From: Porticoccaceae bacterium | GTDB taxonomy: Bacteria; Pseudomonadota; Gammaproteobacteria; Pseudomonadales; Porticoccaceae | DNA: 64,000 bases | Assembly: GCA_029242085.1 (NCBI GenBank) | Contig: JAQWUP010000029.1 | Location: 51,974-115,973, forward strand | Direction: 5' to 3' | Shown: positions 23,561 to 50,188 of the stretch, piece by piece | Position numbering within the stretch: position 1 is the first letter of the stretch | Layout of the letters: each line of letters begins with the position of its first letter | Notes under the pieces: model-generated | Databases searched by the model: none | Told to the model about the DNA's origin: nothing | What the model saw: only the letters and a program-made list of their open reading frames with translations | Position numbers and translations under genes: made by a program

Positions 23561-23585
23561 ATAAAAAAGCCCCGTAAAAACGAGG
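23561..23585 (-). terminator. intrinsic terminator (minus strand)
   Basis: Minus strand AGCCTCGTTTTTACGGGGCTTTTTTATG: 8-bp stem with one mismatch followed by U6. Confidence 0.7.
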
Positions 23586-23955
23586 CTCAAATAAAACTGG
23601 ATGGAATAACATTAAAATCTAAAGAGGGATTGACCCGCGCCTTCCATAGCGCACGACATCCTAGTCGTCTGTACTGCACAACTGGTAGCAAACGAAAGTA
23701 AAAGTAACTGAGCGAGCATCTGTCCTTTGAAGTCAACTCCCTGTCAACCGAGCTCTATAAACATCCTGTCTATCAGTACCACCTTTCTTACAGCAGTGTA
23801 GGTCTGTGTATTTTTACCAGTAAAGTCCCTGTTAAAGCTTCATGCCAAGGAGTCAACGTACATTTAAGATAAGACAGTCAGGCGAGAAAAGAAATTACAC
23901 TGACGAGTTAATACTAAAGTATTAGTTTTCACACCCGTTTTTAGACTCGTCAGCG

Positions 23956-26196
23956 CTAACAGGAATCTGGAACCAGATAGCCCTCAACATGTTCACGGAT
24001 GCGCTGTACTTTCTTGATATTCTCTTCTGTATCCAAGGCGCCATAAGCAGCTCTAAATTCCAGTACCTGCTCTCTCAGCTCAGTCATACCATAGAGCCCA
24101 CATAGGCCCATAAGATCATGGATAATCTGGCGCTGGCTACTGTTTTCCCCTGATCTCAGCTGCAGATCCAGCTTATCAAGGTTCTCATACAGTGCCTCTT
24201 TTAACTCTTCGACCGGTATCACTGAAGCTAGTAGTCCGCCTCCGGAATTTGGGCTGATTTCGTTCATATCATTTAGCGAACTGAGAATACTGTTCACCAG
24301 ACTCACTTCATCAACTGGCTTAGATTGAACACTGACAGCGCCAGCCGTTAGCATGCGCTGTTGCTCCATAGGCGTTATATCAGCGGTCAAGCCAATAATT
24401 GGCGGGCTTTCGCCAGACTGTTGCATAATCGTTTCACAGGCGGTGACACCGTCGACAACCGGCATGTGGATATCCATTAGCACCACATCCACATGGAGAT
24501 CACCTGCAATCTCAATCGCTTCCAAACCGTTATTAGCCACCAGACAATCAGCGCCATAGCCGCGCAAAAGTTTGACAATTAATTTCTGATTAAAAGGGTT
24601 ATCTTCCGCCAATAAAATAGACAATCCAGCCAAAACTTGCTCAGCAAGCACCGCTTGATCATCCTCTAACGGCGATAGGGTATTTACTTCAAAAAGTCGG
24701 CAGGTAAAACTAACCACCGTACCCTTACCTATCTCGCTCTCAATTTTGACGTCCCCGCCCATAGTCTGCGCTAGGCGCTTGCATATTGACAGGCCTAGAC
24801 CTGTGCCACCGAAACGACGATTAATCGAGGTATCTTCCTGAGCGAAGGGGTCAAACAATAAAGCTATTTTATCTGCGGCTATGCCTTTGCCAGAATCAGT
24901 TACGGCGCAGTCCAGAACCACATGATCACCGTCACTCGTCTGCCGCTTAATGTCGACTGAGACAAATCCGCTATCAGTGAACTTAATCGCATTACTCACC
25001 AGATTACTGAAAATCTGCGCCAAACGCACAGGGTCGCCGCTCAACTGCCTAGGCACATCATCGGCAATATTGCATGTTAGCGAGAGATTTTTTTCGTCGG
25101 CGCGGGGACGATGAATTGCTACTAAATCAGTAAACCACTGATCCATGTCAAAATTTATTTTTTCTAAAGTAAAGCCACCTAAATGGGCTTTGGAAAATTC
25201 CAAAATATCATCAATCATGGTCAGCAGCATAGTGGAAGAACTATCAATAATTCGCAAATGCTCTTGCCGTTTGGCAGGATCCTCTTCTGTAGCAAGTAGC
25301 TTCGAAAACCCGATCACCGCCGTTAAAGGGGTGCGCAATTCATGACTCATTCGAGCCAAAAACTGATCCTGAGCTTCCATAGCCTCTTCAAGTTCTATCA
25401 ATGTGATCTGCAACTGTACCGTGGCACGCGCTATTTCACTTTGCATATGCACATTGGATTCTCTAACGCTGGTCGCAAGCTGATTGATACCATAGGCCAG
25501 TTTACGAATCTCCATCGGACCATTTTCTGCGGCCAGCGAATCAAGTCCGCCAGCCTCCATCAGCTCAACAGTCTCAGTTAAGCTCTCTACCGGCCGCGAA
25601 ATACTGCGACCAATTCGCATCGACAGCCATGCAGCAATTAATAAACTCATGGTGGTCACAATTAAAGCGCCAAAAATTGCTTCTCGCTGCTCTTGCAGCA
25701 GTATCTTATCCGTGAGCTCAATGATTACCCAGCCCAAGGATTCAGCCTCAGGCTGCCCGACCTCGTCATAGTCCATAATTGGGATATCGTTGATCGTGAT
25801 AGGTGCGAAAAAATACCAGTGATGATCAATAAAAAATGGTAGACCTGAATCGAATGATCCAGAAATAAGCTGGGTGGATAATTTCACATCACCAATGCGC
25901 ACGGTACTTTTATCAAGCTCATTGTGAAAAATAATACCTGATACCGATGGAATATCGAGAACCGAGTAGCCCAGTGTTTCAAGCATAGCCTGATTGCCAG
26001 AGAACAAGGCAAACTCTGCATTTGAGGCCATTTGATGAACCGCGACCCGACCCGTATCTTGCAGATTATTGAGCAATACTGTTCGCTGACTGGTAATTAT
26101 GTACCAACCAAGGACCAGACTTAATAAGGTCAGTGGAATCAATGTTGTAAGTAGCAGTCGAGCATGAATACTTGCTGGTTTTCGATTGTCTCTCAT
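23956..26196 (-). CDS. hybrid sensor histidine kinase (TM sensor-HAMP-HisKA-HATPase-REC-HPt-like), BarA-like architecture
   Basis: 746 aa; FLARMSHELRTPLTAVIGFSKLL, NLVSNAIKFT, FGGTGLGLSICK, LLAEDNPFNQKL..VLMDIHMPVVDG, C-terminal HDLMGLCGLYGM. Confidence 0.95.
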   Translation of the reverse strand: MRDNRKPASIHARLLLTTLIPLTLLSLVLGWYIITSQRTVLLNNLQDTGRVAVHQMASNAEFALFSGNQAMLETLGYSVLDIPSVSGIIFHNELDKSTVRIGDVKLSTQLISGSFDSGLPFFIDHHWYFFAPITINDIPIMDYDEVGQPEAESLGWVIIELTDKILLQEQREAIFGALIVTTMSLLIAAWLSMRIGRSISRPVESLTETVELMEAGGLDSLAAENGPMEIRKLAYGINQLATSVRESNVHMQSEIARATVQLQITLIELEEAMEAQDQFLARMSHELRTPLTAVIGFSKLLATEEDPAKRQEHLRIIDSSSTMLLTMIDDILEFSKAHLGGFTLEKINFDMDQWFTDLVAIHRPRADEKNLSLTCNIADDVPRQLSGDPVRLAQIFSNLVSNAIKFTDSGFVSVDIKRQTSDGDHVVLDCAVTDSGKGIAADKIALLFDPFAQEDTSINRRFGGTGLGLSICKRLAQTMGGDVKIESEIGKGTVVSFTCRLFEVNTLSPLEDDQAVLAEQVLAGLSILLAEDNPFNQKLIVKLLRGYGADCLVANNGLEAIEIAGDLHVDVVLMDIHMPVVDGVTACETIMQQSGESPPIIGLTADITPMEQQRMLTAGAVSVQSKPVDEVSLVNSILSSLNDMNEISPNSGGGLLASVIPVEELKEALYENLDKLDLQLRSGENSSQRQIIHDLMGLCGLYGMTELREQVLEFRAAYGALDTEENIKKVQRIREHVEGYLVPDSC

Positions 26197-26198
26197 CC

Positions 26199-27203
26199 TT
26201 AATCAGCCTCTAAGACAGCGCGATAAAACTGCTCGCTTTTTAAATCGATATTCAAATTACTGGCCACTGACGAATTGAAGCTTATAGAAAAATAAGCAGC
26301 AGTATGAGAACCACCGGTATCTCCTAGAAATTCATTATCAATAAATTCAGCAGTTTGCTGAGCAACATTTTCAACTGAAGAGTAGATAGCAGCAAGTGCA
26401 CCAGCATCTAGATAGGTTTTTGAATAGGCAATGACTGGAACCTTGTATCTGTAGCTAAGCTGCAAAATCCACTTTGCGGTGGCAATGTTGACCCGTCGAT
26501 TATCCGGCACCGGTATGAAGACATCACTGCGTTTAATTATCGGCTCCAACAGGTGAATTGGATTATCCTCCAATCCTATATTTATCATCTTGGGAACCAT
26601 ATTGGCATCTGTTACATACTGAGCAAAATCATCTTCCCTTTTCTTCGATGAAGGCCCAGTCATTACCCCGGCAATTTTCGCCTCGGGTAGTATCAATTTT
26701 GCCAATCTGATACTTCGCTGGAAGGGCTGATCAAGGCAGATGGCAGATACATTAGCAGCATATGCTTGCATATTAGAGCCATAATATTTTTTGCTCAGCA
26801 AATTAAATGCGCTATCAGTGATTAATACAGCGAGCACTGGCTGTTGTGGTTTCGATTTCATCACTGTTTCAGAGGCCATAGCACCAACGGTGACAATAAA
26901 GTCTGGCTTAAAGTTGAGATTTCTAGTGACAAAATTCTTTTCTACATCGGTAACAAATTGATAGATAGTCCCTGTCTGGCCATGCAAATTTCGCTGCACT
27001 AATGCAGTGAGATCTGTATAAATTTTGGCCTGCTTACTGATAACAAACAGAACGCGGCTTTCCTTGCTAACATTTGATTCAGCAATAACTGTAGGTACTG
27101 AGCAAATAAATAGTGCAACCACCAATACCTGAGTTTTAATCACGCATTGCAACTTAGAGAGGGACGCTTTAAACGACATCTCAGACGAATCCCAATCCAG
27201 CAT
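26199..27203 (-). CDS. ABC-transporter-type periplasmic substrate-binding protein (ABC_sub_bind family), no transporter partner nearby
   Basis: 334 aa with signal peptide; RVLFVISKQAKIYTDL..., fold-typical IAGVMTGPSS and VPVIAYSKTYLDAGALAAIY. Confidence 0.8.
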   Translation of the reverse strand: MLDWDSSEMSFKASLSKLQCVIKTQVLVVALFICSVPTVIAESNVSKESRVLFVISKQAKIYTDLTALVQRNLHGQTGTIYQFVTDVEKNFVTRNLNFKPDFIVTVGAMASETVMKSKPQQPVLAVLITDSAFNLLSKKYYGSNMQAYAANVSAICLDQPFQRSIRLAKLILPEAKIAGVMTGPSSKKREDDFAQYVTDANMVPKMINIGLEDNPIHLLEPIIKRSDVFIPVPDNRRVNIATAKWILQLSYRYKVPVIAYSKTYLDAGALAAIYSSVENVAQQTAEFIDNEFLGDTGGSHTAAYFSISFNSSVASNLNIDLKSEQFYRAVLEAD

Positions 27204-27228
27204 TTAAGTCGCTATTGTGGTTCATGAC

Positions 27229-29262
27229 TCAGGGGATACCTATTTCAAAACCAAGAACATATTGAGTTTTAAAGGCATTGATTTCATAGAACTCAAAATA
27301 ATCAGATCCCACATTTTGTACAGTGAAAGATAGCTCTACATTTGAGTTATTTAAATTGATTTTTTTAGCTGCTTTCAAATCAACACGGGTGTACTTGTCT
27401 AACTGAGAACCCTTTGGATGTCTCGTACCAGACTTATAATTAATCATGGTACTCAGACTCAATCTATCGTCGGTTGTATAATTCACTAGCAATCCCGCAC
27501 TGTGCCCTGGCGAATTGACCTCTAGATCCCGGTATTCAACGTGTGGGGTACTCCGCCAAAGTCGCTTACCAGTAGATTTCACATAGCTATAGTTAGCATG
27601 AACTAGAAAGTTATTATTGGGTCGATACTGAGCCTGCCACTCAGCACCTTGAACGTCGATACTTTCAGTGTTGTCACGTATATTGATTTGTCCATCGATA
27701 TCCGCATACTGCTCTCGACGCTCACCAATAACACCTCTTAGTTTTTCATTGAAAATACGCAGATCGATGGACAGACTAGCATTTAAAAATGAGCCCATAT
27801 AACCAATTTCCGAACTCTTTAGCTGTTCAGGGTTAATATGTGGATCAGAAACAATACTGCCGTCTAGAATCATGTCTTCGTTATAGCGAATATAGGTTTT
27901 CTGATTACTCTCAAGAAGCGTTGGCGCACGATAACCACGATTAAATGCTAACCTTAACGTTTGGTTATCCGCTAACTGGAAGTTACTCGCACCACGGAAG
28001 GAGCTAAATTTTTCTGAATCATCATGTTCACTAATAACCCCTCCATTGAGCACAATGCGATCGCTTGCAGTCCACTGAAAATTGGCATAGGCTCGAATAG
28101 AATTTTCGGAAATACCGTCCTGGGAATCAAAAAAATCTTCACTCTTTACACGGTCGAACCTTAACCCAATACCCGACACAGCTCGGAAGTCATCCCATTG
28201 AGTAAATAGCGTTCTGAATTCTGCATCCCATCTCTCTGACTCACCGCTGCTCTCACCATCTATAATCAGCTTATCCGGAAGCTGTAAAAGTGCAGTTTTG
28301 GTTGGGCTATCAGGCAACCCCGCTAGCGCCTCATGAAAACCGAGTGGTTCCACGTAATCCGTAATCTCTAATAAATTATGATAGACGATAAATTGGTGTT
28401 TATTGCCCTTTTCAGTTAAGTGATCCCACTGTAAATGCTGGTATTGATAGTCTAATTTACGCGGAAATGAATCTCTTTTGCCAACACCTATATCACTGTC
28501 ACTGGCCCCAAATTTTATTTCCAGACTATTGCTGGCAGAGGGAGTCCACAGCCCTTTAAACGACAGCGTAATCGTCTCTGCACCATCATCGAGGATCAAA
28601 TTGTTAAAATCATCAAATCCTTCATTACTTCGGTAGCTCAGTCTAGTGCGGTAATTTAGTTCGCCCGCTGCTCCAGCGTAACTTAATGAGCCATTGCGGA
28701 TGCTATTGCTGCCACCCTCACTGCGCAGATTCCAGCCACTATCAATAAGTGGAGAGCGAGTAATAATATTTATTGACGCCAGAAAAGCGTTACTACCATC
28801 CGCGGGGGCATTGGCTCCGCGAACGACTTCAATATGATCGATATCAGCGAGATCTACGCCCAATGTAGTCCATTCCACCGATGAGAAAAGCGATTCATAG
28901 ACCGATCTTCCGTCGACTTTCACCTCCAGTCGTCGGGGATAGCTATTACCCAAGGTATGGTAGGTTACCCCGGGGCGATTGGCATTGACGAAATAGGTCT
29001 GTAAACCCGGCACCATACGCAGTAAATCGACCACATCCAGTGCTGGAGAGGCATCTATCATACGCCGATCAATGATGGTCACTGAGGCTGGTGCCTCTGG
29101 TAGAGTCTGATCCATATGGGTAACACTATTGACTCGCTGGATATCCACCAACAGATCGCCCTCCGTTACCATAGAATCACCTACGGTAAATTCAGATATC
29201 ACCAATGCCATTACAAGAAGCATTGGAGCTGTATTTTTTTTTGTTGTTTTGAATATCATCAT
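27229..29262 (-). CDS. TonB-dependent outer-membrane receptor
   Basis: 677 aa; plug APASVTIIDRRMI..DVVDLLRMVPGLQ, IDHIEVVRGANAPADGSNAFLASINIITR. Confidence 0.94.
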   Translation of the reverse strand: MMIFKTTKKNTAPMLLVMALVISEFTVGDSMVTEGDLLVDIQRVNSVTHMDQTLPEAPASVTIIDRRMIDASPALDVVDLLRMVPGLQTYFVNANRPGVTYHTLGNSYPRRLEVKVDGRSVYESLFSSVEWTTLGVDLADIDHIEVVRGANAPADGSNAFLASINIITRSPLIDSGWNLRSEGGSNSIRNGSLSYAGAAGELNYRTRLSYRSNEGFDDFNNLILDDGAETITLSFKGLWTPSASNSLEIKFGASDSDIGVGKRDSFPRKLDYQYQHLQWDHLTEKGNKHQFIVYHNLLEITDYVEPLGFHEALAGLPDSPTKTALLQLPDKLIIDGESSGESERWDAEFRTLFTQWDDFRAVSGIGLRFDRVKSEDFFDSQDGISENSIRAYANFQWTASDRIVLNGGVISEHDDSEKFSSFRGASNFQLADNQTLRLAFNRGYRAPTLLESNQKTYIRYNEDMILDGSIVSDPHINPEQLKSSEIGYMGSFLNASLSIDLRIFNEKLRGVIGERREQYADIDGQINIRDNTESIDVQGAEWQAQYRPNNNFLVHANYSYVKSTGKRLWRSTPHVEYRDLEVNSPGHSAGLLVNYTTDDRLSLSTMINYKSGTRHPKGSQLDKYTRVDLKAAKKINLNNSNVELSFTVQNVGSDYFEFYEINAFKTQYVLGFEIGIP

Positions 29263-29297
29263 TTACCTTTTTATAATTTACCAATGAGTCGACATAG

Positions 29298-29969
29298 CTA
29301 TCTATTCGATTCAGATGTTTCAGATAAGCCTAATTTTTGGCCCAAAATACCGGCCTGAGTACGGTTACTTAAACCCAGCGCCCTTAACATGGCACTGACA
29401 TGAACTTTTACTGTGTTCTCAGAAAGATCGAGTTCACGAGCAATTTGTTTATTGGATCGTCCCTGAGTGATACAGAGTAAAATATCCATCTGCCGCTGTG
29501 TTACCAGACCGGCAATAATTTCAATATCAGCACCAGAATCAACTTCATCCATAACTCTGGCCACTTCTGGCATTGACTCCACCAGAGATGCCGGAACATA
29601 CCGCTCGCCCGTCAAGGCCTTGGAAATAGCGTCAAAAAGTGCATCTTTAGGCGCTGATTTAGTTACAAATCCCGCGGCACCAAAGTCGAGACATTTACGA
29701 ATATGAGCAGGGTTTTCTGTCGCAGACAGGACTATTATCGGCAGTTTTGGGTAGCTCTCACAGAGCATCTCAATAAAGTTAAAACCACCTGCTCCGCCGG
29801 GCATAAAAAGATCGACGATGGCAAGATCAATAGTGTTTTGGGCAAGAATGGTTAAGGCGGTATCACCGTGGTCAGTGGTGGTAACTTCAATATTGTCAAA
29901 CTCTTCGCTCAGTGTCGCTTTAAGACCAAGACAAACGAAAGCATGATCATCTACGATGAGAACGTGCAT
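29298..29969 (-). CDS. NarL/FixJ-type (LuxR HTH) response regulator
   Basis: 223 aa; VLIVDDHAFV, AIVDLFMPG, LTQRQMDILLCITQGRSNKQIARELDLSENTVKVHVSAMLRALG-like HTH. Confidence 0.95.
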   Translation of the reverse strand: MHVLIVDDHAFVCLGLKATLSEEFDNIEVTTTDHGDTALTILAQNTIDLAIVDLFMPGGAGGFNFIEMLCESYPKLPIIVLSATENPAHIRKCLDFGAAGFVTKSAPKDALFDAISKALTGERYVPASLVESMPEVARVMDEVDSGADIEIIAGLVTQRQMDILLCITQGRSNKQIARELDLSENTVKVHVSAMLRALGLSNRTQAGILGQKLGLSETSESNR

Positions 29970-30171
29970 GTTTCATTCCTTGTGTTCACTTCCATATGGG
30001 AGATTCATGCAAGCGCTCCCTGCCCGATGAAATACTAGGTTGCCCTCTTATCTGGCAACACCTTTTAGAATGGCTTCAACCAATTCACCAAGGCATATAT
30101 TACTCGGGGTTTGAACTATTAGAAAGGCCTATCAGGTAAACCTATTGGGGAGTATTGAGGCAGAACAAGAG

Positions 30172-40505: not shown

Positions 40506-41384
40506 TTAGTGATTCTGCGCAGGCGTGCCGGGAAGTCCAAACTCCAGATCTTCTCTGTTTGAAGCATAGGTTCTAGTGTTAAACCAGCCGTCCCAAATAG
40601 ATAGCACACTGCCTAGATTCGAAAATCTGTGTCGCTTGCTGTGATGCAGTTGATGTTGTGCTGGACTGATAAAGAAGCGCTCAAATCGGCCGAAAGAAAT
40701 CCATATGTGCGAGTGCCTTAAATTTGCTGCCAACATATTGAACGCAAAACCAAAGGCGTCGACACCGAGAACCTGAAGGCCTGTGAGCCTGCCTGAGAAC
40801 AGCCAAATAAATACACCGCTCACCACACCAAACACCAGCAAGCCTCTTACAAAATACAGTATATGTTCAAGCGGATGCACTCTAAATAATGTAAACGGGG
40901 TCAGCACTGTCGCGCTGTGATGAGTCTTATGAATATGCCAGAGAAAATCAAAGCGGTGCATACAGTAATGAAGAAGAAAACGACTGAGGTCCTCTACAAG
41001 GAAAAATACCGTACTAAAAAGTAGCGCTATAAAGAACCAGCTCATCTCAAGTTGAGGTGCATCGCCAAGGTTATCCTGCAGAGATGAGCCCACCAGAATG
41101 GTAAGCGCCAAATGACTGCCAAACAGAGGCAGTAATAACAAAACCCGCATGCCATTATTAAAAAACATCAGAAAGTAATCTAAGAGGCTAGATTTGGCGA
41201 ACCAGTACCTGCCATCAAAGAGCCTTTTAAGCTGTTCCAGCGGCCGCCATTTACCCACCTGCTTGGCGACTACATAAGAGGCGATCAACAGCGCACTTAA
41301 CAGATACAGCCAGTACACCCGCTTTGCAGAATCAAATAGAAATTCTACAGGGGCTGTCACTAGGTTGAGCAGCTGCGCTTCCAC
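40506..41384 (-). CDS. sterol desaturase / fatty acid hydroxylase superfamily membrane diiron protein
   Basis: 292 aa multi-TM; His clusters HYCMHR, HIHKTHH, HQLHHSKRH; GTG start overlapping TonB receptor stop (TAGTG). Confidence 0.9.
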   Translation of the reverse strand: MEAQLLNLVTAPVEFLFDSAKRVYWLYLLSALLIASYVVAKQVGKWRPLEQLKRLFDGRYWFAKSSLLDYFLMFFNNGMRVLLLLPLFGSHLALTILVGSSLQDNLGDAPQLEMSWFFIALLFSTVFFLVEDLSRFLLHYCMHRFDFLWHIHKTHHSATVLTPFTLFRVHPLEHILYFVRGLLVFGVVSGVFIWLFSGRLTGLQVLGVDAFGFAFNMLAANLRHSHIWISFGRFERFFISPAQHQLHHSKRHRFSNLGSVLSIWDGWFNTRTYASNREDLEFGLPGTPAQNH

Positions 41385-43552
41385 TAGGGATTAAACCGAT
41401 ACTTCACTTCCGCTAGCACCATTCGCGGAAGGTTTGGCCTCGCGGCATAGGGGCGGTGAGACACTATTGCCGACTCGTCCGTTGCGTTTCTAATCATCAG
41501 CTTTACATTAAAATCATTGTTGACAAACCAGGTTGCCGATAGATCAAGAGTCGCGAGACTTTCAGTTTGCTGACCGGGAATAAGATCGCCAACACCTGGC
41601 ACTTCACGCATCTCGTGCTGATATTTGACCGCTGCATCCACAGCCCAATTACTGCTTTCGATACCCACCTGCCAGCGCCCAACATACTGTGGCACATAAG
41701 GCAGCTCATCACCTTTCTTAACCAGCTCCCATTGTGAAAACTGCGACAGGAATGATTTTTGGAATGCGCTCTCTGTGTAGGTGAAGTTTAACTGTGAGTT
41801 GAGTAATAGAGACTCTGTGAGTGCTTCTTCAAACTGGCCATTGAATTCAATCCCACCTATTTCAACCTGCCCACCATTGAACTCTTCACCCACGGCGCAG
41901 TTGGCATCGGATGCCCTGCAACGGCCCAGTAGATTGTCATAATCACTCAAAAATCCGATTAGCTCGGCTGAGTAAGTGTCGGTCTGATAGCGAACACCGT
42001 ATTCAAAATTGAGGCTCTCCTCGGCTTCAGCCGCAGATGCGCCAGGTCCAGCGGGCGAAAAGCCCACATAGACACCCGCCAAAAGGCCAATGTTCTCGCT
42101 TAACTGGTAGTGTAATCCCGCGCCTGGCGCCAAAATAGACTGAGTGTTAGACGACTGGGAACCTGTTAAATGGTTGTCGACACTGCCTTGAATATCCTCA
42201 TATCTGAGACCCAAGCTAAGGGTTAAATCGCCTTTGCTAAGCTCATCTTGGAGATAGACTGCAATGGCATCTGTCTCGGCATAATTAACCACCTTCGAGG
42301 GCCTGGCAATACCGTCTGAAACCAATTGGGTGGCTGTCATTAAATAGCTGCGCTGCTGATGATCACGTTCAACATCGTCATGGTGATAACGAACACCGAC
42401 ATCAAGCTTGTGATCAAAACCGGCGAAGCTAAATTGTTTCGCCAAATCAAGCTGGATACCGTCAGAGCTATAGGCACGATCGTTATCTGTAACATCAATA
42501 GTCAATCCCGCTGCAGCACTGTCTTGGACACCAGCTAACACCTCATAGGCAGACACATATTGACTTGGCGAACTCAGTACCAGCTTGGCATTGGGCCCAT
42601 CAAGAAAGCCATCGAACTTATTCCAAGACCGGTTGAACTTGTTAAAGTAAACCTTACTGGTTAGCTGCAAGCTATCTTGAAACTCAATCTTATGGCTGAT
42701 ATGAAGCTGCTTGTGGTCAGACACAAAGTGATCTAACTCTGATGCGGGATAACGAAGGGTCGGATCACGATCAAAATCGCTGTCGGTCAGCCCTAAATAG
42801 GTTTCATTAGAATCTTCATCGGCATAACCGACTTTAACCACAAGCGTCTGATTCAGTTCTGTTTCCGGCTGCCAATGTACCTTGACGTTGAAGTCATTCC
42901 GCTCAAACCCAGTATCACCCCCGTCTGCTAGTGTTTTAAAACCATCACTTGAATAATGCATGGCATCAAACATGTAGCTGACATTGCCAGCGACAAATTC
43001 ACTGCTTGCTGACAGCTTCTGAAATTGATCTGTACCAGTCGTGACATTTAATTCAGCAAAGCTCTGCCAAGAAGCGGGTCTGGTAACCAGGTTAACCGCT
43101 CCACCCACAGTATGTGGACCAAACTGAATGGACGCGGGCCCCTTGAGTACCTCCAGCGCATGTAATCTGGCGGCATTAGTGATGTAGTATGCCGCTGGAG
43201 CCGAATAGGGCGCAGGTGCGATCAGCACACCATCTTCCATGATAGTAATTTTTTGACTGCGCTCGGCAGTTGCACCACGGATGCCAATATTTGGACGCAA
43301 ACCATAGCCGTCCTCCTCTCTGACATAGACACCAGGCGCCATACTGATAAGTTGATTAAGATCAGTGTATGACTGCTTTTCAATCAACTCCTGCCCAATC
43401 TGAACACCAGAACCTGCCAGCTTAGCCCGGTCCTCTTTGCTGCCAATAATAAGAACCTCTTCTAACTTAGGTGGCTCAATATCCACAGCAAAAGCGCCGC
43501 ATGACATTAGCGTCGTAAGGCTCAAACAAGTTGTACGATTAAATTTAGTCAT
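41384..43552 (-). CDS. TonB-dependent receptor, FecA/Fe(III)-chelate type
   Basis: Plug EEDGYGLRPNIGIRGATAERSQKITIMEDGVLIAPAPYSAPAAYYITNAARLHALEVLKGPASIQFGPHTVGGAVNLVTR; C-terminal barrel end VLAEVKYRFNP. Confidence 0.93.
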   Translation of the reverse strand: MTKFNRTTCLSLTTLMSCGAFAVDIEPPKLEEVLIIGSKEDRAKLAGSGVQIGQELIEKQSYTDLNQLISMAPGVYVREEDGYGLRPNIGIRGATAERSQKITIMEDGVLIAPAPYSAPAAYYITNAARLHALEVLKGPASIQFGPHTVGGAVNLVTRPASWQSFAELNVTTGTDQFQKLSASSEFVAGNVSYMFDAMHYSSDGFKTLADGGDTGFERNDFNVKVHWQPETELNQTLVVKVGYADEDSNETYLGLTDSDFDRDPTLRYPASELDHFVSDHKQLHISHKIEFQDSLQLTSKVYFNKFNRSWNKFDGFLDGPNAKLVLSSPSQYVSAYEVLAGVQDSAAAGLTIDVTDNDRAYSSDGIQLDLAKQFSFAGFDHKLDVGVRYHHDDVERDHQQRSYLMTATQLVSDGIARPSKVVNYAETDAIAVYLQDELSKGDLTLSLGLRYEDIQGSVDNHLTGSQSSNTQSILAPGAGLHYQLSENIGLLAGVYVGFSPAGPGASAAEAEESLNFEYGVRYQTDTYSAELIGFLSDYDNLLGRCRASDANCAVGEEFNGGQVEIGGIEFNGQFEEALTESLLLNSQLNFTYTESAFQKSFLSQFSQWELVKKGDELPYVPQYVGRWQVGIESSNWAVDAAVKYQHEMREVPGVGDLIPGQQTESLATLDLSATWFVNNDFNVKLMIRNATDESAIVSHRPYAARPNLPRMVLAEVKYRFNP

Positions 43553-44822
43553 TGTCTGATTGCACCCTTCCTGGAATTGCGACACCAACAATGGTCACAA
43601 ACTCGATCTTTAAATCATCAGTTACAAGCTTTAATAGTCCAGCAAGACTGCAGGCGCCTATGCTGCTTTCCCCGCCAGGATTGGCAAAGGCATTAAGACA
43701 GGCTGGGTCACTCTCATCGGCTTCCACCAGAGCTAACTGGTCTTTCAACGAACCCGATATCTGTGCAAATCTGTTGTCGACATCAGTCAGTTGATTCTGG
43801 AATCGCAAAGTGATGTCAGTAAAGCCCTCTTGATTGATCAAATCATCAAATCCAAGACCTGACCCACCATTAAATATTCTAAGGAACTCAGCTGCATTGG
43901 TTTGAACGTTGCGCAATGTAGTTTCACTGTAAGGTGACTCGACAAGGCCCGGGCAGGTCACTGAGCTGCATTTGTCATCGAGGCCCAGCGGAATGGTTAG
44001 CTTTTGAGACTTGGTAAAAGTTTCTAAGTAAAAAATTCCATCCGTTATCAATTGGAAGTTTTCGCCCTGACTATCTTCGTTTAAGAATTCCGTCCTGAAC
44101 GGGCTGTCGCCCTCGGTCCACTGGCTGTGTATTGCATTGGATGCCACGGCGACGTCTGCAGCCAATTTCTCAGCGAGACCACAGCGCTGTGTCTTTCGCT
44201 CAGATGCCGCCAAGTCATTCCAGGAAGCGGTTGCCGCAATCTGACTAGAGCAAGAGTGATTGAGGTTGCTGTTAAATAATAGATACTCAAGTGCGCTCAT
44301 GCCACGCTGATTAAAGGCGCGGCTGGACACCTCAAAATCTGCATCGGAAGCGTCGATAACGGCCTGATCAAGCGCGCATGTTGCCAAGCTACCGGCCGCG
44401 TAGGAATGCACCCGATTGTGTAATGCCTCATCGTTACGCAACGCGGGACCAATAACATGCATCTCTGTTTTTTGCACTGAGTCCATCAACACCAACCAAT
44501 CGGTTTGAGCCGTTGCAAGGCTTGTCGCCTCATCGGCAGACCCTATTGCATCACAATAAGTTGCAAGAGAACCCGAGTCTGCAGAGAATGAATCAGCCAA
44601 TGTCGCAGTGGCTTGATAATTGGGGATGAAAATAGAGTCGACCAGATTAGTCATCAGGGCGGTGCGGTCAAATTCCTGCGCCGAACCATCATCAGCCGCT
44701 GGCGTGTCGTTGTTGCTACCATCTCCATTAGCCGCTGCAGGCGAGGCGACATCTCGAGACTTGTCTACGCACCCAGTTAGAAACAGCACTACAAGGGCCA
44801 TAGAACTACAAAAGCGAACCAT
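43545..44822 (-). CDS. imelysin family lipoprotein (peptidase M75-like / IrpA-like iron-associated protein)
   Basis: MVRFCSSMALVVLFLTGC lipobox; GMSALEYLLFNSN motif resembling the imelysin G-x-H/S-x-x-EYLL region; overlaps receptor start. Confidence 0.82.
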   Translation of the reverse strand: MVRFCSSMALVVLFLTGCVDKSRDVASPAAANGDGSNNDTPAADDGSAQEFDRTALMTNLVDSIFIPNYQATATLADSFSADSGSLATYCDAIGSADEATSLATAQTDWLVLMDSVQKTEMHVIGPALRNDEALHNRVHSYAAGSLATCALDQAVIDASDADFEVSSRAFNQRGMSALEYLLFNSNLNHSCSSQIAATASWNDLAASERKTQRCGLAEKLAADVAVASNAIHSQWTEGDSPFRTEFLNEDSQGENFQLITDGIFYLETFTKSQKLTIPLGLDDKCSSVTCPGLVESPYSETTLRNVQTNAAEFLRIFNGGSGLGFDDLINQEGFTDITLRFQNQLTDVDNRFAQISGSLKDQLALVEADESDPACLNAFANPGGESSIGACSLAGLLKLVTDDLKIEFVTIVGVAIPGRVQSDND

Positions 44823-44912
44823 ATTTTCTTTCTCCAATAAGTAGGGGCTAGCCGAAGCTAGCCCCCATAGATTTTAAACCATTTCGCCCTGGTGTTCAGG
44901 GGTTTTAAAAGA

Positions 44913-46598
44913 TTACCAGCTGGCAACATTGTCTGCATCGAAGCCATAGGCCGTCTGCAATGTCTGTCTAGCCGAGGCGAGCTTAGAAGTATACGCGGCA
45001 ATGGCAGTATCTGTATCACCGGCCGCAACGCCACCTTGACTACCATCGGCTAACATAGGTGCGTCACCTAAATCTGCCAGTAGTGTTTTCAGAGTATCGA
45101 GGTCAACTGAAGTCACTGCGTCATCACGGAAAGGTGAGAATGGGCTGAACTGCAGACCTAATGCAAATCCCTTCATCTCTGACCAGTGCTTGGCGACGTC
45201 GATGAAATTATCGACATCGGCAAAACTACCTGCAGAATAATTACCCATATCAGTAGTGACATCATTTATGTAATGAATCACGGTAGCTGCAATACATTTT
45301 TCCCAAGCCAGTGCTGCCGCTTTTATGTGCGCAGCAAGAGCCGCCTCTTCGCTTGCCGACATGGTACCTGCATTTGCAGTATTGCTCAGAATCTGACGCC
45401 CTGCGAGAAATGCATCCATAGCTTCATTCGAGAGATCGGTAGGACTGGCATTGTCTGCTGAGCCAACATCACGTTTCGCACAGTTTTGAGAGTTTCCGAA
45501 ATTAAACTCACTGCGTGGATTGATCAGGCCATTGCCATCTGTATCGTAATAACCATTTTTCCAATCGTCGCGACCACTTTTGGCGCGAGCTTCCAGATCG
45601 GTGTAGGCTTTGTTATCCCGTGCTGCGCCATAGTAGCCAAAGGCCTCGTCATAATTGTGCTCAGCAGCTGAATAATTTTTAGTTCCTTCCTGCTCGGTAA
45701 TCTGCGTGGCAAAATCCGCCTGGAAGTAATCGTTGGTACCCTGTGAGAAGGTCACAGCACCCAGTAAGAATTTCTGTAGCAACTGGCGCTGATTACGACC
45801 ATAGGCATCGTATTGAACACTACTGACATTAGCATCACCATCAACAGTTGAGATCGTAACTGAGGTACCGTCCGATGCCTGAGTTGCCAGCTGGTCAATC
45901 CAGAGGTCTACCAGATTAATCGGCAGAGAACCCAGCGATAGTCCATCAGACCAACCAAAGAACTCACCATCAATCAACTTCGAGGTCTCACCGCCACCTT
46001 CGCCGTTACCACCGGCAATCTTGCCATCTAGATTCTTGCCAGAAGATACTGCGCCATAAGTTGCTGCACTATCTACGTCGCTGCCATCAGACGCACCGTT
46101 TTTAACGGTAAAACCAGTCGATGCCCCGTCGGCTCCATCGCCATTCATAAAGAAATCAAGATCAGTGACGTATTCCGCCTTAGTTTTTCCGGATTCAGTC
46201 ATCGCTGACATATAGTCAACCATGCCAGAGATAAGCAGATGTCTCGCAGTCTGCCCTGTATAGCTTACTGAGTCGCTATCCGCTGTGTATATTGAGTTGG
46301 TATAGGCGTATGCCTCAGGCATTGCATCGCAAGCATCACCCTGCCCATTAGCATCAGAATCTTGCTGTGCTTCGTTGGCAGCATCTGGACAATTATCTGC
46401 ATTGTCACCAACATTATCTGAGTCGGCATCCGCAGACTCAGAGGCATCATTTGGGAAAGCATCAGCTGTATCAGCAACACCGTCCCCATCAGTATCTGTC
46501 ACTGCAGGTGCAGCAGAACTTCCTCCACCACCACAGGCAACCAGAAGCGAGAGGGATAGCACAATAAGCATTTTAGACAGCAGTAACTTCAAATTCAT
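44913..46598 (-). CDS. DUF4856-like lipoprotein with N-terminal thrombospondin type-3 (calcium-binding) repeats
   Basis: MNLKLLLSKMLIVLSLSLLVACGGGG lipobox; DTDGDGVADTADAFPND..DNADNCPDAANEAQQDSDANGQGDACD; YTGQTARHLLISGMVDYM and HNYDEAFGYYGAARD. Confidence 0.8.
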   Translation of the reverse strand: MNLKLLLSKMLIVLSLSLLVACGGGGSSAAPAVTDTDGDGVADTADAFPNDASESADADSDNVGDNADNCPDAANEAQQDSDANGQGDACDAMPEAYAYTNSIYTADSDSVSYTGQTARHLLISGMVDYMSAMTESGKTKAEYVTDLDFFMNGDGADGASTGFTVKNGASDGSDVDSAATYGAVSSGKNLDGKIAGGNGEGGGETSKLIDGEFFGWSDGLSLGSLPINLVDLWIDQLATQASDGTSVTISTVDGDANVSSVQYDAYGRNQRQLLQKFLLGAVTFSQGTNDYFQADFATQITEQEGTKNYSAAEHNYDEAFGYYGAARDNKAYTDLEARAKSGRDDWKNGYYDTDGNGLINPRSEFNFGNSQNCAKRDVGSADNASPTDLSNEAMDAFLAGRQILSNTANAGTMSASEEAALAAHIKAAALAWEKCIAATVIHYINDVTTDMGNYSAGSFADVDNFIDVAKHWSEMKGFALGLQFSPFSPFRDDAVTSVDLDTLKTLLADLGDAPMLADGSQGGVAAGDTDTAIAAYTSKLASARQTLQTAYGFDADNVASW

Positions 46599-46747
46599 GT
46601 TGATTCCTTGATCGTTCAATTTAACCGATTGACCGTTCATCGCTAATCAGTAACCGGGTTTGAGTGCGTTTGCAGAGCAGCCTAAAAACCTTAAGCATCA
46701 GTAGCTACTGCAATCTCTGGTATATCGTTTTATTTACAAGTACAAAT

Positions 46748-46766
46748 GATAATGATTCGCATTACC
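46748..46766. promoter_or_regulatory. Fur-box-like site (for the minus-strand DUF4856-imelysin-receptor operon)
   Basis: gataatgattcgcattacc matches GATAATGATAATCATTATC at 15/19 positions by manual alignment. Confidence 0.75.
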
Positions 46767-46920
46767 AAAGTCAACAAGTTATTTAACCGTAGATATAAAG
46801 TGCTCTTAACCCCGTATTAATGCAGGTGGTCAGTAGGTTGCTTGAACAAGGCTACCCAGCGAAGCTCAAACCTCGCGCATGATGTGATTTGCAAATGTTC
46901 ATCATTTAATATCAGTTTAT

Positions 46921-46939
46921 CGTAATGATAATTATTTGC
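46921..46939. promoter_or_regulatory. Fur-box-like site (for plus-strand FTR1 gene)
   Basis: cgtaatgataattatttgc matches the Fur consensus at 14/19 positions by manual alignment. Confidence 0.7.
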
Positions 46940-47044
46940 ATTTGGGTGTCGATCTGTATAATGTCGGCATCAGTAAATCAACTAAACAGCCTAGATCCCT
47001 CCGCTTAAACTCAAGTACCACAATGACAGGATGCGATACCCACT

Positions 47045-47950
47045 ATGAATGAATTTATTATTATGTTCCGCGAGAGCATGGAAGCAGCACTGATCGTTGG
47101 AATCATTTATACCTTATTAGAAAAGCAGGGCTTAAAGAGCCAAATCAAACAGCTATGGCTGGGTGTCGGCTGTGCAATTATTGCCAGTGTGCTCGCTGGG
47201 CTATTGCTTGTGCGAGTAAAAGCGTCCATTGGCAATGCCTCTATGGAGGCACTCTTTGAAGCCGTGGCTATGTTTATCACTGCAGGTCTGATCTGGTACG
47301 TTATTTTCTGGCTGTCCAAGCAGGTCGGGCAAACGGCAGAACTGGCGGCCGATACCAAGACTGCAATTGCCAATGCCGGTTGGGGTGTTTTTCTGATTGT
47401 ATTTTTCGCCATCTTGCGCGAGGGCTTTGAAACGGTAATCTTCCTGATGGGCAGTTTCTCTATGATGGAGTCTTTTTCTTATCTGGGATTCTTCTCTGGC
47501 CTAATCATCGCAATCATTATTGGATATGCTGTGGTGATACAGGGAAAGAAGGCCAACCTGCGCTCGTACTTCAGAATTACCAGTTTACTGCTGGTTATCT
47601 TTGCCTCCGGCATGATGACTTACGGCACCCATGAGGTGGAAGAGTTTATGGTCAAGGGTGGTCACCTTAACCTTGTAGGGCTCGAGTCAAAAAGTGATAT
47701 CGCTCGGCCCTATAGCATTCTCGAGCCAGTCGCAGAGTTGCAGCCATCTGACAACCCTGCATTTTATAGCTATGACCTTAATGGCAAGCAGCGCTACACC
47801 CATCTACTGCACGACAAAGGTCATATCGGCGTATTTTTGAAGGGCTTTTTCGGTTACAACAGCAACCCAAATTGGATAGAACTGATGGTATGGATCCTGT
47901 CTCTGTGGTTTGGTTTGCGTCTGTGGCGACAATTTTACTTCAGCAAATAA
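47045..47950 (+). CDS. FTR1/EfeU family iron permease
   Basis: 301 aa 7-TM-like; MFRESMEAALIVGIIYT and LREGFETVIFLMG (REXXE motifs). Confidence 0.93.
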   Translation: MNEFIIMFRESMEAALIVGIIYTLLEKQGLKSQIKQLWLGVGCAIIASVLAGLLLVRVKASIGNASMEALFEAVAMFITAGLIWYVIFWLSKQVGQTAELAADTKTAIANAGWGVFLIVFFAILREGFETVIFLMGSFSMMESFSYLGFFSGLIIAIIIGYAVVIQGKKANLRSYFRITSLLLVIFASGMMTYGTHEVEEFMVKGGHLNLVGLESKSDIARPYSILEPVAELQPSDNPAFYSYDLNGKQRYTHLLHDKGHIGVFLKGFFGYNSNPNWIELMVWILSLWFGLRLWRQFYFSK

Positions 47951-49273: not shown

Positions 49274-50188
49274 ATGGCTATTAGGCATTTTCTCACGCTT
49301 CGTGATCTCACTACTGACGAGTTCAATCACATTATCAAGCTGGCTATTGAGATGAAAGCAGCGCACCGCGAAGGCCGTCAGGAGCCAATTTTTAATGGCA
49401 AGGTATTGGCGATGATTTTTGAAAAATCATCCACCCGAACTCGTGTTTCCTTTGAAGCTGGTATGGCGCAGCTTGGCGGCGACGCACTGTTTTTGTCACC
49501 CAATGATTCGCAGCTGGGACGTGGCGAGCCGATTGAAGATTCCGCCCGTGTGATTTCACGCATGGTTGATATTGTGATGATTAGAACCTTTGGCCATGAC
49601 ATTATCGAACGCTTTGCCCAACACTCCAAAGTGCCGGTTATCAATGCGCTTACCGATCAATACCACCCCTGCCAGTTACTTGCCGATGTGCAGACCTTCA
49701 CTGAGCATCGCGGTTCGATTCAAGGTAAAACTGTGGCCTGGATTGGCGATGGCAACAATATGTGCCACTCGTGGATTAATGCGGCCATATTGCTCGATTT
49801 TTAATTGAATATTGCCTGCCCAGAAGGCTATGAACCGGATGCCCAACTCGTTACCGAGGCGGGTGACCGAGTAACCATTAGCCAAAACCCAGTAGAGGCC
49901 GTGAATGGTGCAGATCTGGTGACTACTGATGTCTATGCCTCGATGGGGCAGGAATCTGAGCAGCAGGTTAGGCTAGAGAAATTTGCCCAGTTTCAGGTCA
50001 ATCATGAACTGATGGCCCATGCGGCAGACAGGGCAATTTTTATGCATTGCCTACCTGCTCATCGAGAAGAAGAGGTGTCTGCGGCGCTGCTGGAAGATAA
50101 CAGTATTTCGGTGGTATGGGATGAGGCCGAGAATCGACTGCACGCTCAAAAAGCGCTGATGGTATTTTTACTTTCCGCCAGTACTTAA
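49274..50188 (+). pseudogene. argF: ornithine carbamoyltransferase interrupted by in-frame TAA at 49802-49804
   Basis: Fragment 1 contains [13 protein letters not shown] and [11 protein letters not shown]; fragment 2 begins [11 protein letters not shown] and has HCLPAHR; both in one frame separated by a single TAA. Confidence 0.9.

Follow-up and report, generated by a model that had tools for sequence, protein, structure and literature searches.

What does a periplasmic substrate-binding protein do when its gene stands between those of a TonB-dependent receptor and a histidine kinase, with no transporter encoded beside it? The question is raised by four successive minus-strand genes of a SAR92-type marine bacterium, contained in a stretch of 64,000 nucleotides (the window). 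Here, we propose that these genes probably form a dedicated sensing unit, in which the orphan binding protein would present a BarA-type sensor with a ligand brought in by the TonB receptor, with relay to a response regulator. This is based on the gene content, the conserved gene order, the absence of a transporter, a common sensor with an exchangeable output and, in one lineage, the joint absence of receptor and binding protein alongside a changed sensor.

The operon and its genomic setting

The features are as follows (window coordinates):

30036..30060, minus strand: upstream conserved element TGTTGNNNNATAANNNGGCAAMCTA, 67-91 nt before the RR start
29298..29969, minus strand: NarL/LuxR-type response regulator (RR), 223 aa (Pfam Response_reg and GerE; motif positions)
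27229..29262, minus strand: TonB-dependent receptor (TBDR), 677 aa (Pfam Plug and TonB barrel)
26199..27203, minus strand: orphan periplasmic substrate-binding protein (SBP), 334 aa (PF04392, ABC_sub_bind)
23956..26196, minus strand: hybrid histidine kinase (HK), 746 aa (Pfam HAMP, HisKA, HATPase and Response_reg)
23567..23588, minus strand: terminator-like stem-loop with a T-rich tail, 3' of the kinase (consensus scan only)

The genes are separated by 35 nt (RR-TBDR), 25 nt (TBDR-SBP) and 2 nt (SBP-HK), and are flanked by rplS and rnr, which were identified by inspecting the translations. A preliminary description of this DNA had given the same coordinates, strand and small gaps, which proved right on recheck, and had noted the absence of an ABC permease or ATPase; on inspection there is indeed none nearby. 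The bacterium's own genome yielded neither a second PF04392 protein besides the SBP nor a relative of the PF04392-type permease, with a query that detects permeases in other loci; as this genome is 83% complete, these absences are not absolute. A plasmid collection gave no match.

Elsewhere in the window, an apparent ornithine carbamoyltransferase gene (49274-50188) consists of two adjoining same-frame ORFs (49274-49804 and 49805-50188), the putative frame being interrupted by one in-frame stop (a pseudogene or an assembly error). A second TonB receptor, putative periplasmic proteins and a nearby FTR1-like permease gene lie at 41384-47950, a possible iron-uptake cluster as judged by eye.

Architecture of the signalling proteins

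The kinase has the order TM1, sCache_4-type periplasmic sensor (about residues 35-172), TM2, HAMP (195-246), HisKA, HATPase, REC and an HPt-like segment. Its histidine lies in SHELRTP (284-290), its receiver aspartate in VVLMDIHMP (571-579) and its HPt-like motif is IHDLMGLCG (692-700). The Pfam Hpt model gives no score on the window kinase; all complete same-genus kinases retain HDLxGxxGLYG, and the kinase at locus L044, from another family of the order, has HKIKGLAGVGRM at the equivalent place, with a sub-threshold Pfam Hpt match. The preliminary description had credited the kinase with its own REC and an HPt-like motif, and both are borne out, the REC by Pfam and the HPt by the conserved motif and the L044 homology. 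Together with the separate RR, the kinase thus has the HisKA, REC and HPt parts of a hybrid phosphorelay, with the HPt assigned by motif and homology only.

Taken alone, the window kinase scores 18.3 bits against sCache_4, below the curated cut-off of 22.1; in the homologous sensors the domain lies between two TM helices and is followed by HAMP. The best NCBIfam match of the kinase, covering the N-terminus, is BarA, at 406 bits against an equivalog cut-off of 890. The sCache_4 domain (formerly DUF2222) is the sensory module of BarA/GacS-type kinases (PMC4822843). The operon kinase shares this module with BarA, GacS and LetS but differs from them in coming with an attached SBP and TBDR.

The RR carries its phospho-acceptor aspartate in AIVDLFMPGG (residues 50-59), along with VDDH at 6-9 and VTKSAP at 102-107, and at 87.6 of 280 bits is far under the cut-off for UvrY/SirA/GacA. 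The receptor comprises a plug and a barrel, with the colicin I receptor as its nearest solved relative. Like FecA/FpvA-type signalling systems, the operon ties a TonB receptor to gene regulation; unlike them, its receptor has no match to the STN N-terminal signalling domain of a FecA-type transducer, and a two-component relay is encoded alongside. Upstream of the RR, the 25-nt element at 30036-30060 is kept in three relatives and is likely the promoter or operator of the operon. An attempt to define a regulon by operator search was abandoned, there being no second perfect copy of the element in the genome; its conservation and the lack of such a copy make the predicted autoregulation of the operon plausible.

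The binding protein belongs to a transporter-free clade

The SBP has a Sec-type signal peptide (by inspection), scores 35.3 bits against Pfam ABC_sub_bind (cut-off 25.9) and, in a structure model with a pLDDT of 90.3, adopts the two-lobed fold of PF04392 proteins. In Foldseek the model matches 3lft, 3lkv (VC_1101) and CD0873, the best match being the open form 6hnj (TM 0.67/0.75). These structures bind Trp (3lft), Phe (3lkv) and Tyr (CD0873) (PMC6816091). The PF04392 amino-acid binders TrpX, CD0873 and VC_1101 are therefore the nearest solved structures to the SBP by sequence and fold, but TrpX and CD0873 are both assigned to ABC import systems. The SBP reaches only 36.6 of the 390 bits of the TrpX equivalog, and no permease and ATPase of a TrpX-type importer are encoded with it. 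An aromatic amino acid, the ligand that the closest structures would suggest, is not predicted, since both selectivity residues of CD0873, Glu263 and Tyr279 (PMC6816091), differ in the SBP, where by our reading of the alignment they correspond to Y260 and V277.

Phylogenetically, the SBP falls in an orphan clade of 102 members (support 0.81), separate from permease-linked PF04392 proteins and marked by strongly conserved Q159, P160, R163, D234, S261, G268 and N310. On a distant PF04392 branch, L168 is a single protein with the order PF04392-TM-PAS-GGDEF-EAL (read by eye past the GGDEF motif), so the PF04392 family serves signalling in more than one way. At L162, L169, L171, L177 and L184, PF04392 proteins that lie outside the orphan clade likewise adjoin kinase-like or GGDEF genes. 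Candidate SBP-sensor fusions at G204, G315, G411 and G378 were discarded, as the long frames are overlapping frames; the distant L168 is the sole fusion to GGDEF-EAL.

The arrangement is conserved across the class

We surveyed 35 listed relatives of the same genus and searched 369 gammaproteobacterial genomes with an SBP profile. The SBP is present in 18 of the 35, and every fetched same-genus locus that bears it has RR-TBDR-SBP-HK, as far as the contig reaches. L044, from another family of the order, carries the full set of four genes; L045 and L046 have TBDR-SBP-HK. The arrangement recurs in other families of the order. Class-wide, the profile matches 77 of the 369 genomes, about a fifth. 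Neighbourhoods were read for these matches and for named records (SAR92, Porticoccaceae, Natronospirales, Thiohalobacter, Thiobacillus, Gallionellaceae and others), giving 124 loci, which include some genomes twice under two names. The gene directly after the SBP encodes a kinase in 97 of these and a GGDEF protein in 11, and the gene run includes a TBDR in 99 and an RR in 38. TBDR-SBP-HK or TBDR-SBP-GGDEF occurs throughout the class, and also in records that bear the names of betaproteobacterial groups.

A permease follows the SBP at one of the 124 loci only (L047), a distant out-group match that is a normal transporter, and a PF04392-type permease is absent from the gene run of every orphan-clade locus. 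The L099 run includes a 705-aa gene with an ATPase match, further upstream.

Could the grouping be due to chance, or to a recent, local loss of an ABC transporter? Conservation in the genus, in other families and across the class means that the arrangement is not chance, and its class-wide occurrence without a transporter, in a clade of its own, rules out local transporter loss; we found nothing in favour of this explanation and give it next to no probability. The preliminary description had proposed checking the four-gene order in relatives, and had held that relatives with an adjacent ABC permease or ATPase would speak against it; what relatives have is the orphan arrangement, so that the SBP is not the leftover of a transporter.

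Gene order is not fixed everywhere, as L128 reads RR-TBDR-HK-SBP, with the kinase preceding the SBP. Directly upstream of the RR at L032:11342-15408 lie an exosortase gene (EpsH domain and DUF3485) and a large TPR gene, with equivalents at L033, L035, L037, L039, L043 and L228. A link to exosortase/PEP-CTERM as part of the core was considered and rejected: the exosortase is found in 10 of 40 same-genus genomes and is absent from the bacterium's own, which places it outside the core unit. Frames are split in the SBP and kinase of L043 (the L197 genome) and in the receptor of L041 (L194), and at L227 (G004) the C-terminal part of the kinase alone remains; these broken frames reflect either decay or sequencing error in draft genomes.

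The sensor domain is the constant partner

In GGDEF partners, the match to the kinase profile is confined to positions of about 8-263, which cover the TM, sensor, TM and HAMP. Among 83 sensor N-termini, HAMP was detected in 80 and sCache_4 in 73 (E up to 0.01). An SBP followed by a protein with this sensor segment is found for 91 of 110 distinct SBPs, and the stop and start codons of the two genes overlap very often. As the sCache_4-HAMP sensor is all that kinase and GGDEF partners have in common, it is the sensor that is the constant partner. The preliminary description had the binding protein read by the sensor part of the kinase; the comparison upholds a conserved partnership with a membrane receptor that has one kind of sensor domain and either a kinase or a GGDEF output. 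One sensor type with an exchanged output is the pattern expected if the sensor reads the SBP.

A second possibility is that the sCache_4 domain binds a small ligand directly, with the TBDR serving nutrition or ligand supply and the SBP acting as a periplasmic buffer that makes no contact with the kinase. Direct binding of small ligands is common among Cache domains, and the sensor model resembles, at weak scores, single sensor domains of the Cache/PAS-like kind. Against this, SBP-HK pairs occur without an adjoining TBDR, 12 with nothing upstream in the run and 3 with an RR upstream (some at contig ends); the pairing of SBP and sensor thus does not require the receptor gene. We regard direct binding as improbable.

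Co-variation of the proteins

In a mirror-tree analysis, SBP and sensor distances correlate when the kinase core is controlled for (partial r 0.54), and this falls to a weak 0.06 (p = 0.08) once the TBDR is controlled. With the signal nearly gone under that control, the mirror-tree does not distinguish a direct link between SBP and sensor from one between TBDR and sensor, and we rejected it as proof of contact. The sensor stays tied to the TBDR with the SBP controlled (partial r 0.27), a point in favour of direct ligand binding by the sensor. The tightest pair is TBDR-SBP (partial r 0.53). Co-variation is compatible with three proteins adapted to the same ligand, and does not itself demonstrate contact.

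The tightness of the TBDR-SBP pair would also suit a transport role, in which the SBP passes its ligand on to an inner-membrane importer encoded elsewhere, while the kinase by itself detects need or uptake and regulates the operon. SBPs are, after all, normally transport proteins, and one lineage (below) retains the kinase and RR in the absence of both TBDR and SBP. Opposed to this role are the lack of a PF04392-type permease, both in the orphan-clade gene runs and in what is available of the bacterium's own genome, the constancy of the sensor as a neighbour whose start codon often overlaps the SBP stop, and the swap of output to GGDEF. A transport role is, in our judgement, unlikely.

A lineage without receptor and binding protein

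At L221-L224, from four genomes of the genus (G020, G026, G028 and G031), the order rplS-RR-HK-rnr is kept and the TBDR and SBP genes are missing; no SBP match was found anywhere in these four genomes. With L044 as out-group, their kinases are nested among SBP-bearing ones, so that joint loss of TBDR and SBP is the simpler reading. Their sensors are without the DYDE stretch and the FALFSGN motif. With the topology fixed, sensor branch length is 6.5 times that of the kinase core on the stem of this group and 3.9 times in its crown, compared with 1.7 times elsewhere; over 24 site bootstraps the ratio is 4.8 (3.9-7.2) against 1.6 (1.4-2.2), so relative to the kinase core the sensor has changed about three times faster. 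As there is one inferred loss event, and the SBP-bearing branches L038 and L031/L033 also have ratios of 3.3-3.9, the change of the sensor where the TBDR and SBP genes are jointly absent is suggestive, an indirect sign that the SBP acts on the sensor, and not proof. Survival of the RR and HK in this lineage means that the kinase is not useless alone.

A proposed mechanism and its relation to known systems

In light of this, how might the sensing unit work? The TonB receptor would carry a scarce ligand over the outer membrane, and the PF04392 SBP would catch it in the periplasm. The SBP, loaded or empty, would then dock on the sCache_4 sensor of the kinase and switch it, whereupon phosphate would pass along the His-Asp-HPt path to the adjacent NarL-type RR, which probably acts on its own operon as well as on other targets. 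We infer that the ligand is sensed rather than transported.

In gene content, with the SBP adjoining the kinase and no transporter genes, the operon resembles SBP-activated sensor kinases of the LuxPQ, TorTS and AioXS kind. The LuxP-LuxQ system of Vibrio (AI-2 sensing) likewise has a two-lobed SBP without a transporter beside a hybrid kinase whose periplasmic sensor is of the Cache clan. Foldseek returned the LuxP-LuxQ complex 2hj9 among the SBP matches, and LuxQ is among the kinase matches. LuxP and LuxQ nevertheless belong to other SBP and sensor families, and their unit is not known to include a TonB receptor. LuxQ-periplasm is listed separately from DUF2222 (PMC4822843). The arsenite-sensing AioX-AioS-AioR system also groups an orphan SBP, a kinase and a regulator in one cluster, and its ligand-bound SBP is thought to act on the kinase (PMC5908839), but AioX is of a different SBP family and the regulatory cluster has no TonB receptor.

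Of 11 SBP-kinase pairs that have been characterised, 10 have their genes side by side or at a very short distance (PMC11113362). In P. aeruginosa, the SBPs encoded near AgtS and AruS yielded no evidence of activating a kinase (PMC11113362); neighbourhood can therefore mislead, and adjacency is not proof.

Significance

That an SBP can drive a kinase is already known in principle from LuxP-LuxQ and AioX-AioS. In the open-licence literature searched, we found no description of a unit combining a TBDR, a PF04392 SBP and an sCache_4 sensor. Given that roughly one in five of the gammaproteobacterial genomes sampled has a relative of the SBP, the unit appears to be a widespread and unstudied means of detecting an external molecule. 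More tentatively, it may be a widespread proteobacterial module in which the TBDR is mainly a sensor entrance and a non-transport PF04392 SBP drives sCache_4 receptors with phosphorelay or c-di-GMP output, and BarA/GacS-type sCache_4 domains may read a protein-bound signal.

Genes like that of the orphan SBP are easily annotated as transport genes. If our proposal is true, a class of "ABC substrate-binding proteins" would be sensory, and TonB receptors beside such proteins could not simply be read as nutrient importers. It would also give a definite starting point for finding out what sCache_4 sensors of the BarA type can detect. The lineage with the kinase but without the receptor and SBP is a natural comparison for mapping a putative contact site.
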